Shown here: positions 13,221 to 20,086 of the stretch, piece by piece
How the letters are laid out: each line of letters begins with the position of its first letter
Position numbering within the stretch: position 1 is the first letter of the stretch
Assembly (NCBI GenBank): GCA_002840435.1
Contig: PHAT01000006.1
Location: 124,001 to 188,000, forward strand
Source of the DNA: Deltaproteobacteria bacterium HGW-Deltaproteobacteria-6
GTDB taxonomy: Bacteria; Desulfobacterota; Syntrophia; Syntrophales; Smithellaceae
DNA length: 64,000 nucleotides
Direction: 5' to 3'
Made by a program: the position numbers and the translations under genes
The notes under the pieces: generated by a model
Told to the model about the DNA's origin: nothing
The model's database searches: none
What the model saw: the letters and a program-made list of their open reading frames with translations, nothing else

Positions 13221-16200
13221 TCAGCCTTCATCCTTCGGTCCAATAACTTTTTTCCCCACGAACCATTTTTCTTCTATGCCGGCTGTTGGCGAGTTGAAAA
13301 CTTTGACATCAAATCCGGCGGCGGAAATCCAACCGGCAATTTCGTCTTCGCTGCGGAAACGCTCCTGCATGCCTGTCCACTTGACGCGCGCGCCTTCAAT
13401 CCAGCGCTTCCACGGAACCCTCCTTGCCGAGGGAACGGTTGCGCGGATCAGCAGGGTGCCGCCCTTTTCGAGTTTACCGTAAATCCTCCGTAAAACAAGT
13501 TGCAACTCTTCATCGGTAATCAGATGCAGCATGTCCAGCATCATCACATAATCCACGCTGCCTTCCACGTCCGGTAAATCCGGCGCGCGTCCGACCTGCA
13601 CACATCCGCGCGTTCCGATCACACGGTTGGCAATCAGCACTCTTTCTTCATCCGGCTCCAGACCGAAGACTTTTGCGTCAGGATAAATTTCCAGAAGCCA
13701 CGTGGCCGGAATGCCATAGCCGCAGCCGATATCGAAAATCCTGCGGGGATTTTTCACATATTGGTCCAGTTCCCGAAACATCGGATCGATGATAATTTTC
13801 AACCGGGCAAAAATCCGCGGATAACCGGGTAAATGCCGGTAGCGTAAAAGCGTGCGCTTCAGATGCTCTTTGGAACCGATCTCAAATTCGCCTGACGGAT
13901 ATTGAACGGGCGCAAATATTTTTGCCATCAAAACCGGCAGGATAAAGTAGGCCCCGATTAACGCATAGCCGATGCCTAAAAATGAGACAATTCCGATGCT
14001 CTTCAAGAGCGGGTGGCTGGCAAAAATCAAAACGCCGAAACCGATTAGTGTGGTGAAGGCCGACAGAAACATCGAAAATTTGATGGTCTGCATGCCCGGA
14101 AGTTTTTCATCAAAATTGCGCTGATAATGGCAGATGTAATAAAGCGCGTAATCATCCCCCATGCCCAAAATGATAATCCACAGCATAATACCGGGGATAT
14201 CGAGCGGATGACCGATAAGCTTCAATGTGCCCAGCGTGGCGCAGAGTGCAAAGACAACCGGCGCCAGTGCCGCAAGCGACAAACGCCAGTCCAGAAAATG
14301 CAGGAAGGTAATGAGAATCAATCCGACGCTGATGATAAGAGCGATTTCCAGAAAGAGATTTTTCAGGACATCGCTAAGCCTCTTGTTGAACAAATCAGCG
14401 TCGAAGAGTTTAACGAGCCCCGCGGCGGAAATTCTGTTGAATAAATCATCCGCGTTATAATTTTTTCCGGCGGTAAGCAGACTCAATTGCGTGAAGCCTT
14501 GCGGACTTTTGGCAACGCCCAGCATTTCAAAATATTTTTCCGGCATTTCGAAGACACCGGAATCTCTCTGATGAACGATTTTCCAGAAGGGGTCAAACGC
14601 ATCGGGCGCGAAGCCGTTTTCCCGCGCCGACGCATCCAGGTCACGCTTCAATGCAGCCACACGATCTTTGTTCCAGAACCCTTGCCAGGCGGCAAAATGA
14701 CTTTGAGCCGATTCTTGGGATGGAAATAAAACGGATGGCAGAAATACCGGGGCAAGTTTTTCCTTCTCCACGTCAGAGGCCAGGAGCGCCATCAATTGTT
14801 CATTTTTTTTCTGCAATTCGCCCATGCCTGCCGCTTCCAGAAGAATGTAACATTTGCCGGAAAGATTTCCCCAGGTTTCCTGTAATTTTTTTTCGGCGTT
14901 GATCGAATCCTTGCTTACTGAATTCATAGCCTGCAGATCCACATTAAAAACCGGCTTGGCAAAAACCAGCATAACCAAACCGAAGATAATCGCGGCTGCC
15001 AGTTTCCATTTCGCGGGGGCGGCAATTTTGAGAACAGCATTGAGAAGGAAAGGGTTGGTCCGGCGTTTTGCAGGCGGCATGGCTGGAAATATTTTTGGAA
15101 ATACAAAATGAACAAAAACCAGGGCAAAAGCGACACCCAGCGCGGAAAAAACGCCGATCTCGGCCAGGATTTTAAAGTCGCTGATCAAAAGCAGCAGGAA
15201 GGCGCCAACAGTAGTCACCGTTGCCATGAACTCCGCCGACCAGACCTCGCGCGCCACCTGTTTGCCATAGGTGGTATGAGGCTGATCAAGAAAAAGCAGA
15301 TACGCGATTCCCATATCAACAGTAAAGCCCATAATAGCGCCGCCGAAACCAATAGACAGTATGGACATGGATTTGAACAAAAAAGAACAAACAAACAAAG
15401 CGGCAATGGCCCCCACGGTGGAAGGCAACAGCGCCAGAAGCCCGATGAGCGGCCGGGGAAAAGCGAAGATGATCAGAAGAATGATACACACGGTCGTTAA
15501 AATGATGGCCAACTGCACGTCGCGCTTGGCAATGGTTTCGTTATCCAGCGCGGCGCGATAGGCACCCACCGACGTCAGGACATATTGATCTTTGAAATCC
15601 GCATTGCCCCCGAGCGTTTTTCGGCAATCATCCAGAAGTTTTTCAATTTGAGCGGCTTTGGCCGTGTCCGTTCCCGATCCGGATATCCGGGCAATAATCA
15701 GCGCGTGCCGGCCGTCGGCGGAAATGAGCTGCCCCTGATAAAACTGCGCTTTATTGGCCGGCATCAGGAGAGACATTTGCCCCAGAATTACAGAGGACAT
15801 TCCCAAAGGGTCTTTGGCCATCATGTCGGCCCGGCCAATCCCTTCCAATTGCTCCAGACTCTGCCGGTTCCGGGCCACGGCCACCCGGATATTTTCCGGT
15901 GTGAGCAGCGGCTGAATTTTTTGTTCCAGATCGGACGCGCTGAACAGCGACGGCAGATTGTTATGAACATGTGCGATCAGTTCAGGAAAACTTTCTGCCT
16001 CGTCGCTTACGCCGACTTTGGTAAATAATCCGCTCTTATTTAACTGGACTGTAATAAGAGACGCCGCGCGAACGAGTTTGTCGCGGTCATTTCCCTTCTG
16101 TTCCAGATCAATAAAAATTTTATCCTGGATGGGCAACCGGCTGATCACCCGGCGTGCAGAAGCCAGCACCGGATCGTTTTGCGGCATGGATTCCAGAATG

Positions 16201-16307
16201 TCGGTTGAAATTTTTAAGTGGGTGGTTTCCCAGAAAAAAAGCAGTCCGACAACCAGAGCAGCAATAATAACAATCGACCATTTTATGGAGTATTTTTGCG
16301 GCGGCAT
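13221..16307 (-). CDS. MMPL/RND-type exporter fused to a SAM methyltransferase
   Basis: 1028 residues. Residues 1-800 form an MMPL exporter of two repeats, each with an N-terminal transmembrane helix, a periplasmic loop and about five helices. Helix 4-type signatures are GFGGAIMGFTVDMGIAYLLF and ILGMGDDYALYYICHY. The last ~210 residues are a class I methyltransferase with RIFDIGCGYGIPATW (motif I, about 855), FGLEPDEE and VMMLDMLHLI. Aryl polyene clusters normally carry an MMPL exporter and a methyltransferase as separate genes, so the fusion is notable. It should sit in the inner membrane with the methyltransferase in the cytoplasm, and may methylate then export the lipid product. Its final codons overlap a dispersed repeat. 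Confidence 0.9.
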   Translation of the reverse strand: MPPQKYSIKWSIVIIAALVVGLLFFWETTHLKISTDILESMPQNDPVLASARRVISRLPIQDKIFIDLEQKGNDRDKLVRAASLITVQLNKSGLFTKVGVSDEAESFPELIAHVHNNLPSLFSASDLEQKIQPLLTPENIRVAVARNRQSLEQLEGIGRADMMAKDPLGMSSVILGQMSLLMPANKAQFYQGQLISADGRHALIIARISGSGTDTAKAAQIEKLLDDCRKTLGGNADFKDQYVLTSVGAYRAALDNETIAKRDVQLAIILTTVCIILLIIFAFPRPLIGLLALLPSTVGAIAALFVCSFLFKSMSILSIGFGGAIMGFTVDMGIAYLLFLDQPHTTYGKQVAREVWSAEFMATVTTVGAFLLLLISDFKILAEIGVFSALGVAFALVFVHFVFPKIFPAMPPAKRRTNPFLLNAVLKIAAPAKWKLAAAIIFGLVMLVFAKPVFNVDLQAMNSVSKDSINAEKKLQETWGNLSGKCYILLEAAGMGELQKKNEQLMALLASDVEKEKLAPVFLPSVLFPSQESAQSHFAAWQGFWNKDRVAALKRDLDASARENGFAPDAFDPFWKIVHQRDSGVFEMPEKYFEMLGVAKSPQGFTQLSLLTAGKNYNADDLFNRISAAGLVKLFDADLFNKRLSDVLKNLFLEIALIISVGLILITFLHFLDWRLSLAALAPVVFALCATLGTLKLIGHPLDIPGIMLWIIILGMGDDYALYYICHYQRNFDEKLPGMQTIKFSMFLSAFTTLIGFGVLIFASHPLLKSIGIVSFLGIGYALIGAYFILPVLMAKIFAPVQYPSGEFEIGSKEHLKRTLLRYRHLPGYPRIFARLKIIIDPMFRELDQYVKNPRRIFDIGCGYGIPATWLLEIYPDAKVFGLEPDEERVLIANRVIGTRGCVQVGRAPDLPDVEGSVDYVMMLDMLHLITDEELQLVLRRIYGKLEKGGTLLIRATVPSARRVPWKRWIEGARVKWTGMQERFRSEDEIAGWISAAGFDVKVFNSPTAGIEEKWFVGKKVIGPKDEG

Positions 16308-16398
16308 GCAAACCTTTAGAATCTCTGGATATTTTTTTACTTACCCTGCGGTTTTTTAACCATATTTCCGGGGCACTGGCAAGCTAAAAACAAAAAGG

Positions 16399-16426
16399 TT
16401 GATACTATTTATTTCAGCAATAATAT
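16399..16426 (+). promoter_or_regulatory. Predicted sigma70 promoter, plus strand
   Basis: TTGATA, 16 bases, TAATAT. It overlaps an almost symmetric promoter on the other strand inside one imperfect palindrome, so the two transcription units probably compete or share control. Confidence 0.5.
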
Positions 16427-16429
16427 CAA
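16402..16429 (-). promoter_or_regulatory. Predicted sigma70 promoter for the MMPL gene
   Basis: On the minus strand: TTGATA, 16 bases, TAGTAT, about 95-120 bases upstream of the exporter start. It is superimposed on the plus-strand promoter at 16399-16426. Confidence 0.5.
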
Positions 16430-16432
16430 AGT

Positions 16433-16691
16433 ATTATTTATTCATTGTTTTTTTATTTATTTGCTAAAGATTTCTTCAATAAATGTCGATGATTTAATCA
16501 AAGAGTTTCTGGAGTGTTCGAAGAATACTCAGGATGGCGGAATCGAACAATAAAAATAATACAGCGGCCTGCCTGATGATTTTCAGCCTGAGGCCGAAAT
16601 AAATTTTAAAGTGATTCCAGCCGGATCGACAAAGACGGCACATCTGGAACTCAATACCCTCCGCGATCCCTTCCCGGGGGGTATTTTTTTT
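16433..16691 (+). ncRNA. Structured leader RNA or small RNA ending in a terminator
   Basis: From the predicted start near 16433 the plus strand folds into several helices. They are GAGTGTTC/GAATACTC (16512-16530), GGCGGAATC (16536-16544) with GATTCCAGCC (16613-16622), and CGGCCT/AGGCCG (16565-16596), followed by a strong terminator at 16653-16691. TTCCAG at 16615 can pair instead with CTGGAA at 16644, giving two exclusive folds as in riboswitches. It ends 55 bases before the response regulator-TPR gene. It matches no RNA family I recognise. It could be an attenuating leader or an independent small RNA. Confidence 0.45.
16653..16691 (+). terminator. Rho-independent terminator upstream of the response regulator operon
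   Basis: An 11-bp stem (AATACCCTCCG with CGGGGGGTATT, one G-U pair) is followed by a run of eight T. No plus-strand protein gene precedes it, so it must end a leader or small RNA. Confidence 0.8.
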
Positions 16692-16746
16692 CTGCAAGCT
16701 ATGCTACTCTTACTATGCATAAATAATATTCCATATCGGGTTTAAA

Positions 16747-18378
16747 GTGAAACAGGAAAGCAAACCGCAAATCAGTTTAAAAACGAAAAAAGTTCTGATT
16801 GTCGACGATTTTTTTAATTTTCGTCTGACCGTCAAAAATATGATGCGTTCACTGGGCATCCTGTTTATCGATGACGCCGCCTCCGGCGAAGATGCCGTCA
16901 AACTGATGGCTGTCCGCCGATTCGACATTATCCTGTGCGACTACAATCTGGGGCCCGGAAAAAACGGGCAGCAGGTGCTGGAAGAAGGTAAATTCCGCGG
17001 GTACATCAATTCCTCCACCATTTTCATTATGCTGACAGCCGAAAACACGACGGAAATGATCATGGGGGCGATAGAATATAAACCTGATGATTATCTCATG
17101 AAACCGTTCGCCAGAGAAGTGCTGGTCAACAGAATTAAAAACATCGCTGCAAAAAAACTCAACCTGCGGGACATTGAAACAGCCATTACGGAAAACGACT
17201 TCAACCGCGCGATTCACCTCTGCGATGAACTGCTCACGCAAAAGCCGGGCAATATTTCCGAAATCATGAGACTCAAGGGCGAAGTCCTTCTTAAAAAAGG
17301 AGCCTATAAGGAAGCTGCGGAATTTTACGATAAAATTCTGCTGATGGGCAATGTGCCCTGGGCTCAGCTGGGACGAGGCCGTACAGACTTTCTTTTGGGA
17401 AACTATGAGCGGGCAAAAAATATTTTTGAGCATATCATCGCTCAAAACAATAAAATCATGACCGCCTATGATTATCTCGCCCAAACCCTGATCAAAATGC
17501 ACAACCCCCTTGAAGCGCAGCAAGTGCTGATGAACGCCGTTAAAATTTCACCAAGAGCCCTGCTGAGGCATAAAAATCTCGGCAGCCTGGCCTATCGCAA
17601 TGAAGATTTCACTACAGCCGAAACCTCTTTCAAAAGCGCGGTGGATCAGGGCAAGCATTCCTGTTTCAAGAATCCCTCCGACTACACCAACCTGGCCAAG
17701 ACGCTGGTTCATTGCGACGCGCCGCAGGAGGGGCTGAAAGTACTGGGAAACGCGCTTCATGAATTTCCGGACAACAGTGATACACGCCTGCACTTAAGCG
17801 TCGCCGAAAGTTACGTTTATACCAAAATGAATAAAACCGACGAGGCCAGGCGCTCTCTGGCCACTGCGCAAAAAACCGCGGCAGAGCTGGATGGCGATAT
17901 CCCCGGCAATCTGGCGCTTGACCTGGCCGAGGCCTATCTGGCAGCGGGAGAAACGGAAAAAGGGACAGCCCTCATTAAAAGTATCGTGGAGAGCAATCAC
18001 GACAACGACGAAGTCCTGGATAATATCCGCGCCGTTTTCAAGGAAATGGGAATGGCTGAAAAGGGCGAAGCATTGATTGAAACCACGCGGGATGAAATCA
18101 TCGAGCTCAATAATAAGGGCGTGAAACTGGCTCAGGATGGAAATATTGCAGAAGCCATCACTTATTTTGAAAAGGCGGCCGATCATCTGCCGGAAAATAA
18201 AATCATCAACGCCAATGCCGCCCATGTCCTGATGCTTTATATGAAAGAACGGGGCATCCATGAGGATCGTCTCGCTCAGGCAAAAACATATCTTGACAGA
18301 GTGCGGAAAATTGACGAAAGTTACGCCGATTTTGCCGCGCTTCTGACCATGTATCGAGAACTCTCCGCCGAGGAGTAA
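16747..18378 (+). CDS. Response regulator with TPR output domain
   Basis: 543 residues starting at a GTG. Residues 15-125 form a receiver domain with the acidic pair D20/D21, phospho-acceptor D65 (ILCDYNLGPG), T97 and K119 (LMKPF). The rest is a chain of TPR repeats, for example EIMRLKGEVLLKKGAYKEAAEFYDKILL and ELNNKGVKLAQDGNIAEAITYFEKAA. There is no DNA-binding domain, so output should be protein-protein interaction. It is followed 2 bases later by a small histidine kinase and then another TPR protein, forming a signalling operon. Upstream lies the folded leader RNA, which may attenuate expression. Confidence 0.9.
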   Translation: MKQESKPQISLKTKKVLIVDDFFNFRLTVKNMMRSLGILFIDDAASGEDAVKLMAVRRFDIILCDYNLGPGKNGQQVLEEGKFRGYINSSTIFIMLTAENTTEMIMGAIEYKPDDYLMKPFAREVLVNRIKNIAAKKLNLRDIETAITENDFNRAIHLCDELLTQKPGNISEIMRLKGEVLLKKGAYKEAAEFYDKILLMGNVPWAQLGRGRTDFLLGNYERAKNIFEHIIAQNNKIMTAYDYLAQTLIKMHNPLEAQQVLMNAVKISPRALLRHKNLGSLAYRNEDFTTAETSFKSAVDQGKHSCFKNPSDYTNLAKTLVHCDAPQEGLKVLGNALHEFPDNSDTRLHLSVAESYVYTKMNKTDEARRSLATAQKTAAELDGDIPGNLALDLAEAYLAAGETEKGTALIKSIVESNHDNDEVLDNIRAVFKEMGMAEKGEALIETTRDEIIELNNKGVKLAQDGNIAEAITYFEKAADHLPENKIINANAAHVLMLYMKERGIHEDRLAQAKTYLDRVRKIDESYADFAALLTMYRELSAEE

Positions 18379-18380
18379 AA

Positions 18381-19073
18381 ATGGAAAATAAGATAAGCTT
18401 TGCCGACATCCTGGCGTCAACCCTGCACGACACAAAAAATTCCCTGGGCATTTTATTTAACAATCTGGAAGACATCATTGCCAGTTGCCGCGAACAGAAC
18501 TGTGAGCGATATACTGAATTCTACATGCTGCAATACGAAATTAAACGTTTAAACAACAGTCTGATCCGGCTGCTTTCGCTTTACAAAGCCGAAAAATCAC
18601 AGCTTGTCGCCAACATGGATTACCACGCCATCGGTGAATTCCTGGAAGATGTCGCCGTTGCCCATGAAATTCTTCTGGACTCCCGCGGGATCAAGCTTTT
18701 CACGGAATGTGAAGACGGTCTTTTCCGGGCATTCGACCGCAATCTGGTCGAGGGCGTACTGGACAACATTATCAATAATGCTTTCCGCTATGCGCAAAGC
18801 ACGGTTAAAATAAAAGCATCGACGGACAACGGCTATCTGGTTATCCAGATTGAAGATGACGGCGGAGGCTATCCGTCAACCATGCTGATCAACGAAAACA
18901 AACACCCCGAGTTTAAGCATGAAATCGATTTCAAAACCGGCAGCACCGGACTGGGCCTGTATTTTTCCATGATGGTTGCCGCCATGCACGTCAATCAGAA
19001 CAAAAAAGGTTTTATTTCCATCGTTAACGGCGGCAGCATGGGCGGCGGCGTATTTTCCATTTACCTGCCGTAA
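18381..19073 (+). CDS. Small soluble histidine kinase
   Basis: 230 residues without a transmembrane or sensor domain. H16 in STLHDTKNSLGI is the likely phosphorylated His of a dimerisation domain. The HATPase domain shows the N-box LDNIINNAFRYA, the G1 box IEDDGGGYP and the G2 box STGLGLYFSMMVA. It is encoded 2 bases after the receiver-TPR gene, its probable partner. With no sensor of its own, the TPR proteins on either side may deliver the signal. Confidence 0.9.
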   Translation: MENKISFADILASTLHDTKNSLGILFNNLEDIIASCREQNCERYTEFYMLQYEIKRLNNSLIRLLSLYKAEKSQLVANMDYHAIGEFLEDVAVAHEILLDSRGIKLFTECEDGLFRAFDRNLVEGVLDNIINNAFRYAQSTVKIKASTDNGYLVIQIEDDGGGYPSTMLINENKHPEFKHEIDFKTGSTGLGLYFSMMVAAMHVNQNKKGFISIVNGGSMGGGVFSIYLP

Positions 19074-19090
19074 CCGGGGAGAGGAAACAC

Positions 19091-20086
19091 ATGGCTTCCA
19101 AAATTTCCAACATCACTGAACTTTTCCATCGATTCCATCAATGCGAGATGCAGCTCAAACAGAGCAAAATTGCCGCCTGCCTCATCGGATTTAAAGAAGT
19201 CATAGAAAAAACAACGGCCATTCCTAAAACCGAAAAAGAAAAGAACGAACTGCATCAAAGCATTGAACTCTTCCTGAGAAACCTTTCGGCGCACAAGAAA
19301 TTCCAGGAAATTTTCGGCATGGTGTCGTTTGGCGATACCGACCTGGAAACCAACCTGGAATTTATCAAGAGCATGATCGTCGCCCAGGAAGAAGATATTG
19401 TTGAACGCATTAAAAAAGATGAAGAGGCCGCCGAAACACAGAGACTGGAAATCGACCGGGAGAAACAGAGGCAGCAGGACCAGCAGCGCAAAAAAATCGT
19501 GCAGGCCATAGCGTTTATCGATCAGGAAAAACTGCCGCAGGCGATGGAGATCATCGGCGAAAGCGAAGATATCCGGGAAGCCGTCGTGCTCCACTATAAC
19601 GATATCGGCATGCAGTGCCGCACGGACAAATCATTTGAGGAAGCCGTTAAAAACTATGCCAATGCCATCATGCTCTCGCCGGAAGATGAAAACCTGTATT
19701 ACAATATGGGGCGCGCTCATTTTGAGGCGGGAAATGCGGACAAGGCGGAGAAGTTTCTGGGAAACGCCATAAGACTGAATCCGGATTTTAATGAAGGAAA
19801 AGTCTTTTACGATTACCTGCTGCAGCTAAACGCCCCCAAGACCGGACAAGTCAACCATGAAAATAAGTTTTACGGCTTTTTTCAAAAATTTTTGCATTTC
19901 CTGCGAAAACCGGAGGTTAAACCTGTGGCTGAGCCGTCCGCCGCGGAGCCTGACGAGGATGCACGGAAGGATGCTCCATTGAAGCAACCGGATCCTGTCA
20001 AACGCAAGAATCAATTCAACGGTTTTTTTCTGAATATTCTAAAAAAATTTAAAAGCCTGAAGAAGGCACCCGATCATACGGAATGA
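19091..20086 (+). CDS. TPR/coiled-coil protein of the response regulator operon
   Basis: 331 residues. About residues 1-95 are helical, 95-140 form a highly charged coiled coil (DEEAAETQRLEIDREKQRQQ), and 170-245 hold two to three TPR units (YYNMGRAHFEAGNADKAEKFLGNAIRL). The C-terminal tail carries two similar amphipathic motifs, NKFYGFFQKFLHFLRK (about 258) and NQFNGFFLNILKKFK (about 308), separated by an acidic linker. They could bind membrane or a partner. RBS GGGGAGAGG precedes the ATG. It is the third gene of the operon. Function unknown, probably an adaptor. Confidence 0.75.
   Translation: MASKISNITELFHRFHQCEMQLKQSKIAACLIGFKEVIEKTTAIPKTEKEKNELHQSIELFLRNLSAHKKFQEIFGMVSFGDTDLETNLEFIKSMIVAQEEDIVERIKKDEEAAETQRLEIDREKQRQQDQQRKKIVQAIAFIDQEKLPQAMEIIGESEDIREAVVLHYNDIGMQCRTDKSFEEAVKNYANAIMLSPEDENLYYNMGRAHFEAGNADKAEKFLGNAIRLNPDFNEGKVFYDYLLQLNAPKTGQVNHENKFYGFFQKFLHFLRKPEVKPVAEPSAAEPDEDARKDAPLKQPDPVKRKNQFNGFFLNILKKFKSLKKAPDHTE

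Follow-up and report, generated by a model that had tools for sequence, protein, structure and literature searches.

What lies between two divergent genes in a 64,000-nucleotide stretch of contig PHAT01000006.1 (positions 124,001 to 188,000, forward strand) of Deltaproteobacteria bacterium HGW-Deltaproteobacteria-6, a member of the Smithellaceae in the order Syntrophales? We refer to this whole stretch as the window, and count positions from its first base. The intergenic region (16308-16746) separates an MMPL/methyltransferase gene (13221-16307, minus strand) from a gene for a receiver-TPR protein (16747-18378, plus strand). A preliminary description, made from the sequence alone, placed here two overlapping face-to-face promoters and a folded transcript, either a riboswitch/attenuator or a small RNA. 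We consider it probable that 16465-16691 is a complete small-RNA gene encoding an extra, flagellar-sigma-driven RNA that resembles 6S RNA and acts as an open-promoter mimic. The analysis yielded an RNA family, a covarying rod-shaped structure, a likeness to the canonical 6S RNA of the same genomes, a conserved promoter motif and a terminator. The parts referred to below are as follows.

16465-16492, plus strand: sigma-28 (FliA)-type promoter, with TAAA at 16465-16468, a 16-base spacer and GTCGATGA at 16485-16492 (motif scan, four orthologues, flgM spacing)
16499-16691, plus strand: predicted RNA of ~190 nucleotides (nt), a 6S-like rod plus terminator, placed by the match to covariance model R3, both ends predicted
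16503-16652, plus strand: stem that closes the rod, pairing 16503-16509 with 16646-16652 and extended inward through the 6S-type motifs CUGGAGUGUUCG (from 16509) and ACGGCACAUCUGG (from 16635)
16539-16618, plus strand: middle stem, pairing 16539-16545 with 16612-16618; in 11 rows, five of the seven pairs do not vary
16546-16611, plus strand: central bubble round the apical arm, 16546-16564 and 16597-16611, with a product-RNA start predicted opposite C16548 by analogy with Bacillus subtilis 6S-1
16565-16596, plus strand: apical arm, 16565-16570 with 16591-16596, and a tip of 16573-16576 with 16583-16586
16653-16691, plus strand: intrinsic terminator, stem 16653-16663/16675-16685 and T run 16684-16691
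16399-16429, no strand assigned: palindrome earlier taken as overlapping promoters, outside the conserved RNA gene (promoter scan, alignment of relatives)

Comparison with relatives is the simplest guide to whether such a region matters. When 40 genomes were searched by DNA, the stretch turned up in two more of the same genus (G018 at 76% identity and G006 at 74%), with the same two neighbours, and two genomes of another genus (G058, G057) retain the order MMPL, RNA, receiver-TPR, which is common to five genomes. Averaged over the four orthologues, identity to the window is 0.95 for the -35 box, 0.75 for the -10 box, 0.63 for the RNA and 0.68 for the terminator, compared with 0.32 and 0.33 for the flanks. 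These relatives and the covariation described below both support an RNA. No Rfam family exceeds its threshold in the window, with only low-scoring matches in the stretch. Short DNA matches in four other genomes (G013, G011, G005, G019) were inspected and looked unrelated. A repeat element was rejected, as the window genome has one match each by DNA, R2 and R3 (models defined below), and single-base gaps between the orthologues argue against the conserved reading frame of a small protein, although no coding test was run.

To look further, we searched 155 genomes, all of the one order Syntrophales, with covariance models. The first (R1), a branched fold built from three sequences, matched 13 of the 155 (E up to 0.01), with one or more of these rows doubtful. 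R2, a rod built from eleven members aligned by sequence alone, defines an RNA family of ~158 nt in 80 of the 155 genomes at E up to 0.001. The branched fold, although it found the first distant members, was therefore set aside in favor of rod models, which matched many more genomes. R2 gave 126 matches in the order (one match in 48 genomes, two in 20, three in 10 and four in 2). In searches over more than 40 genomes only the best candidates were scored (19 per genome for R2 in the order, 7 per genome for R2 and R3 outside it), so the numbers of family matches are lower bounds. Outside the order, R2 adds 6 genomes and R3, a model made from short members alone with no canonical 6S RNA, adds 12 at E up to 0.01, the lowest of which are doubtful; the match in G163, which lies inside a weak match to the cspA thermoregulator (55.1 bits, cut-off 78), is doubtful. 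In the window, R3 has a single match up to E 10, at 16499-16659 (99.3 bits).

Some counts below refer to a set of 113 members, made of the 102 matches labelled A4 and the 11 earlier members; a partial member (L124:245-315) is left out of this set, and is included in the set of 114. The 126 matches are not all in these counts because order matches of up to 47.5 bits, and G059, were left out. The search for the set labelled A5 covered 88 of 100 fetched loci and 12 others. The members tested against Rfam gave nothing over threshold. Lax Rfam searches of member loci returned a weak 6S match in G032 and, adjoining the G011 member, tRNAs and plastid look-alikes, with nothing else that names the RNA.

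Covariation within the family is strong. In the eleven-member alignment the rod has 32 pairs with 86.9% of cells paired, and 12 pairs vary in both partners, a count that 27 of 500 shuffles attain. The covariation score is 0.347, compared with 0.191 in shuffles (none of 500 reaches the observed value) and 0.164 for the best slid structure, the rod having been drawn from the same sequences on which it was tested. The apical arm contributes compensatory changes in four of its five stem pairs and all three tip pairs. Among 102 aligned members (101 distinct), in an alignment fitted to the model, 26 of the 32 pairs show changes in both partners, and 92.1% of cells are paired. The window copy also folds better than chance, more so if the RNA starts at 16500 (z = -4.45 for 16500-16692, 1 of 200 shuffles as good) than at 16433 (z = -3.11 for 16433-16692, 0 of 200 as good).

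Could the RNA instead act in cis, as the leader (a riboswitch or attenuator) of the receiver-TPR gene that was first proposed? The terminator is real (an 11-bp stem, with eight T at 16684-16691, 55 bases 5' of the gene start at 16747), and both this proximity and the gene order kept in five genomes are what a leader would predict. The closest orthologue tells otherwise. The receiver-TPR gene (E up to 1e-100) occurs in 4 of 20 genomes of the genus, the window's own counted, and the most similar protein is that of G012 (86%, versus 70 and 67%); yet G012 keeps the gene without the RNA and its promoter, both neighbors being intact and the gap ~160 bases instead of 439. The locus (L005, G012:C177, 1401-1562) thus amounts to a natural deletion of the RNA gene and promoter. 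Elsewhere in the family, members adjoin unrelated genes: the nearest downstream open reading frame (ORF) of the 113 members is on the same strand in 55 cases, on the opposite strand in 52 and missing in 6, a split that indicates that the RNA is not followed by a regulated gene. The family has no recurrent downstream gene (the largest neighbor cluster holds 9 proteins), and a crude test for a hairpin plus T run within 70 bases 3' was positive for 57 of 114 members. The members look like free-standing genes.

A switch had also been suggested, in which TTCCAG (16615-16620) pairs with either the GGAA at 16539 or CTGGAA (16644-16649). All three sequences exist, as do the other sequence features named in the preliminary description. 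The CTGGAA/TTCCAG pairing decays from 6 of 6 pairs in the window and G018 to 5 in G006 and 4 each in G058 and G057, and is for that reason called not conserved; in the competing stem GGAAUCG/UGAUUCC, five of seven pairs are identical in all 11 rows, and two are broken in 3 and 4 rows. Because of the orientation of neighbors, the G012 deletion and the failing switch pairing, we regard a leader as very improbable. Of the two options offered initially, the small RNA is the one that held up, and 16499-16691 looks like a conserved stand-alone RNA gene.

What kind of RNA is it? 6S RNA, an open-promoter mimic that blocks RNA polymerase, acts as a general brake on the main polymerase. The window genome has a canonical copy (G000:C1:113396-113590, 92.4 bits) between zapA and rny (the RNase Y gene); Escherichia coli ssrS likewise lies 3' of zapA. 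Canonical 6S RNA is over threshold in 122 of the 155 genomes of the order. Like 6S RNA (SsrS, RF00013), the short RNA is a rod with a closing stem, central bubble and apical arm, an architecture recovered by covariation on both 11 and 102 members. Conserved 6S-type motifs occur on both sides of its closing stem, and are common to the short RNAs and the canonical 6S RNAs of the same genomes: both carry CUGCGAUG.CG and ACGGCAUAGGCGG, and the window copy has CUGGAGUG.UCG and ACGGCACAUCUGG. Recognition by covariance models is mutual, although weak. R3 recovers 14 of 14 canonical 6S loci along the full model (E between 7e-6 and 0.019), and in 53 kb gives a single further match, at 6.8 bits; R2 had earlier matched 8 of the 14 (10 of 17 loci given, some of them duplicates). 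Conversely, RF00013 reaches the short RNAs of G032, G071 and G069 in register at 28, 24.1 and 21.6 bits. The gathering cut-off is 46.4 bits, above the best short member, and the window copy is unlisted. We therefore name the RNA 6S-like and keep it out of RF00013. It differs from canonical 6S RNA in its shorter apical arm, its own promoter and terminator, and its place outside the zapA-rny locus; it is probably an extra, shorter and divergent 6S-type copy beside the canonical one of the same genome. A replacement of canonical 6S RNA was considered and rejected, as the short RNA occurs in 61 of 122 genomes with an over-cut-off canonical 6S and in 19 of 33 without (p = 0.56).

It is nevertheless worth asking whether this likeness could be confined to the closing stem, with the rod serving as a stable scaffold for a sigma-28-dependent, base-pairing small RNA (sRNA) that does not bind polymerase. 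The apical arm is much shorter than that of aligned canonical 6S RNAs, and the R3 alignments to canonical loci rest largely on the closing stem. Such sRNAs have precedent: the available part of PMC10578931 describes four in E. coli (UhpU, MotR, FliX and FlgO) that are under the flagellar sigma factor, as the short RNA may be, and that are derived from untranslated regions (UTRs) and base-pair, but which, unlike the short RNA, are not 6S-shaped. However, rod, bubble and both closing-stem motifs are conserved together, all 14 canonical loci match over the whole model, and short arms need not abolish function, given that a truncated B. subtilis 6S-1 with short arms is active in vitro at ~10-fold lower affinity (PMC8876501, in the portion of the text available). 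We think the base-pairing alternative unlikely.

As promoters, the preliminary description saw TTGATA-16-TAATAT (plus strand, 16399-16426) and TTGATA-16-TAGTAT (minus strand, 16429-16402). Both are present, each scoring 9/12, but as promoters they are little above chance, given that a 701-base scan found 5 promoter-like sites when shuffles gave 2.0 (sd 1.4), and neither is conserved among the relatives aligned. The likely promoter, judging from sequence, is instead the sigma-28-type box at 16465-16492, which leads to a predicted transcript of ~190 nt rather than the ~260 nt proposed before. Sigma-28 promoters have a TAAA box and an GCCGATAA-type box at a fixed spacing 5' of the start, and flgM is a sigma-28 target. 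The window box scores 10/12 with an N16 spacer and is conserved in the four orthologues, whereas the best sigma-70 score of the window copy is 7/12. The exact form TAAA-N16-GNCGATNA has this box as its sole match in 64 kb (0.16 expected), bearing in mind that the pattern was written to fit. FliA is encoded in the window genome (G000:C1:672246-672917, 256.6 bits). Within ~190 kb round the fliA genes of five genomes 9 boxes were listed: seven are 5' of other ORFs or of none, and two boxes, both with the N16 spacer of the window RNA box, lie 32 and 35 bases 5' of flgM in G000 and G006. No such box was seen 5' of flgM in G018, G058, G151 or G128.

Across the family the picture is mixed. Upstream of the 113 members, the best sigma-28-like score reaches at least 10/12 in 22 cases (shuffled sets give 0.8 each), and the best sigma-70 score does so in 46 (shuffled sets give 2.2 each). 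A strict box (exact TAAA-N16-NNCGAT, 7-12 bases 5' of the rod) occurs in 16 members, and strict boxes in 16 genomes. FliA is found in 13 of these 16 genomes, compared with 13 of 32 that have strong sigma-70 boxes alone (p = 0.013, uncorrected for kinship); we counted 66 FliA genomes, 61 over the cut-off and 5 with partial matches, taking 2 weaker ones as negative. FliA does not predict possession of any short RNA: 36 of the 66 genomes with FliA have one, as do 44 of the 89 lacking it (p = 0.63). In a quick tree of the 102 RNAs the sigma-28 label requires 3 changes, compared with 14.2 in shuffles, and 14 of the 16 labelled rows fall with the window in one 22-row group (SH-aLRT 96) that includes 8 sigma-70 rows and spans seven families. 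The remaining two (G132, G124) lie outside it. In this tree L177, a strict sigma-28 member, was left out, and L028 (G006, TTAA at -35, 9/12) was labelled sigma-28 despite being outside the strict set.

A 6S-like gene transcribed by the main sigma factor, with the sigma-28-like box a chance likeness, has some points in its favor: the looser two-mismatch consensus gives 4 sites in the window when 2.6 are expected, 46 of the 113 members have good sigma-70 boxes, and G132 and G124 carry strict boxes without a detected FliA. The exact form, however, is found once, in the right place; the box is conserved in the orthologues, clusters on the RNA tree and has flgM-like spacing; and the sigma-70 score of the window copy is low. 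We judge chance likeness to be quite unlikely here.

Several observations weigh against a flagellar 6S-like RNA and should be set out together. For the window copy the minimum-energy structure is branched, and a fold in which the closing-stem pairs are imposed is 4.1 kcal/mol less stable; those pairs appear in the minimum-energy folds of 8 of the 11 members, the window copy not among them. In the middle stem, two outer pairs are broken in 38 and 41 of the 101 distinct rows. E. coli ssrS is missed by R3 even at E 10, and the window copy is absent from RF00013 searches run to E 5 and, a second time, to E 0.5. A clear sigma-28 box is lacking in most members (scores below 10 in 91 of 113), three strict-box genomes have no detected FliA, the association of box and FliA is uncorrected for kinship, and the quick tree warns of long branches meeting at the window's group.

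If the flagellar 6S-like reading is right, the sigma-28 promoter would yield a ~160-nt rod-shaped RNA related to 6S, ending at the intrinsic terminator. The most likely mode of action, by analogy, is that of 6S RNA: the central bubble, from middle stem to apical arm, would mimic an open promoter and occupy RNA polymerase holoenzyme, and the RNA would be freed once polymerase uses the bubble as template for a short product RNA; transcription dependent on FliA, polymerase binding and release, and product-RNA synthesis are each predicted. Copying would begin at C16548, predicting a product 5'-GUUCGAUUCCGCC, with short products beginning 5'-GUUCGAUUCC. Past the middle stem, the bubble's 5' side reads AAC or AAU in 95 of 102 members, by a loose pattern. 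The B. subtilis 6S-1 product begins 5'-GUUCGG according to the available part of PMC12005410, and the predicted product shares GUUCG with it. In E. coli 6S RNA, the accessible text of PMC8876501 places a -35-like region in the apical arm and a -10-like region in the 3' bubble.

As FliA is expected to be required for transcription, the RNA would be produced while late flagellar genes are on, passing the flagellar state to global transcription. A broader suggestion, which we offer tentatively and regard as doubtful, is that a short 6S-type branch has come under the flagellar sigma factor in seven Syntrophales families, so that sigma-28 activity makes a decoy holding the rival sigma-70 holoenzyme (or its own), the same genomes carrying more copies under other promoters. 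If true, a decoy RNA links motility to global transcription, sigma factors compete through a promoter mimic, and holoenzyme choice by a 6S-type RNA becomes testable. The 6S-like identity would also name a conserved RNA that our Rfam searches left blank.

Parts of this have precedent: second 6S copies, sigma-28-dependent sRNAs and a 6S-shaped RNA on core polymerase are already known, as far as the available parts of the cited sources go. B. subtilis 6S-2 and other second 6S copies (PMC12005410) are likewise extra 6S-type RNAs beside the canonical one; the short RNA differs from 6S-2, compared by description alone, in having up to four matches per genome at scattered loci and one sigma-28-type branch. 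The Ms1 RNA of Actinobacteria, also compared by description alone, is 6S-shaped, outside the canonical family and binds core polymerase, in the part of PMC9130861 available. In the open-licence literature searched, whose scope does not extend to a 2014 survey of 6S RNAs, we found no sigma-28 branch described for a 6S-like family, and among 5.39 million open-licence papers none that treats Syntrophales together with 6S RNA.

Some minor features remain. The palindrome at 16399-16429 is a near-perfect inverted repeat (TTGATACTATT / AATAATATCAA) that may be an operator of the divergent MMPL gene; it is not conserved in the aligned relatives. That gene (13221-16307, minus strand) is a single frame of 1028 amino acids with an MMPL-type protein and a C-terminal methyltransferase domain, and on the other side (16747-20083, plus strand) the receiver-TPR gene is followed by a histidine-kinase-like ATPase gene and then TPR genes, a row that adjoins the RNA in G058 and G057 too. 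Upstream of L107, L114, L109, L115, L181 and others, which have no clear sigma-28 or sigma-70 box, there is a further pattern, approximately TTCTTTGAAAGAT followed by an A-rich box. One contig (L114, G067:C90) carries tandem RNA copies at 1758-1918 and 2686-2844, with two more elsewhere in G067, and in L146 (G011:C261, 2739-3267) an RNA copy lies directly 3' of two tRNA genes on the same strand.
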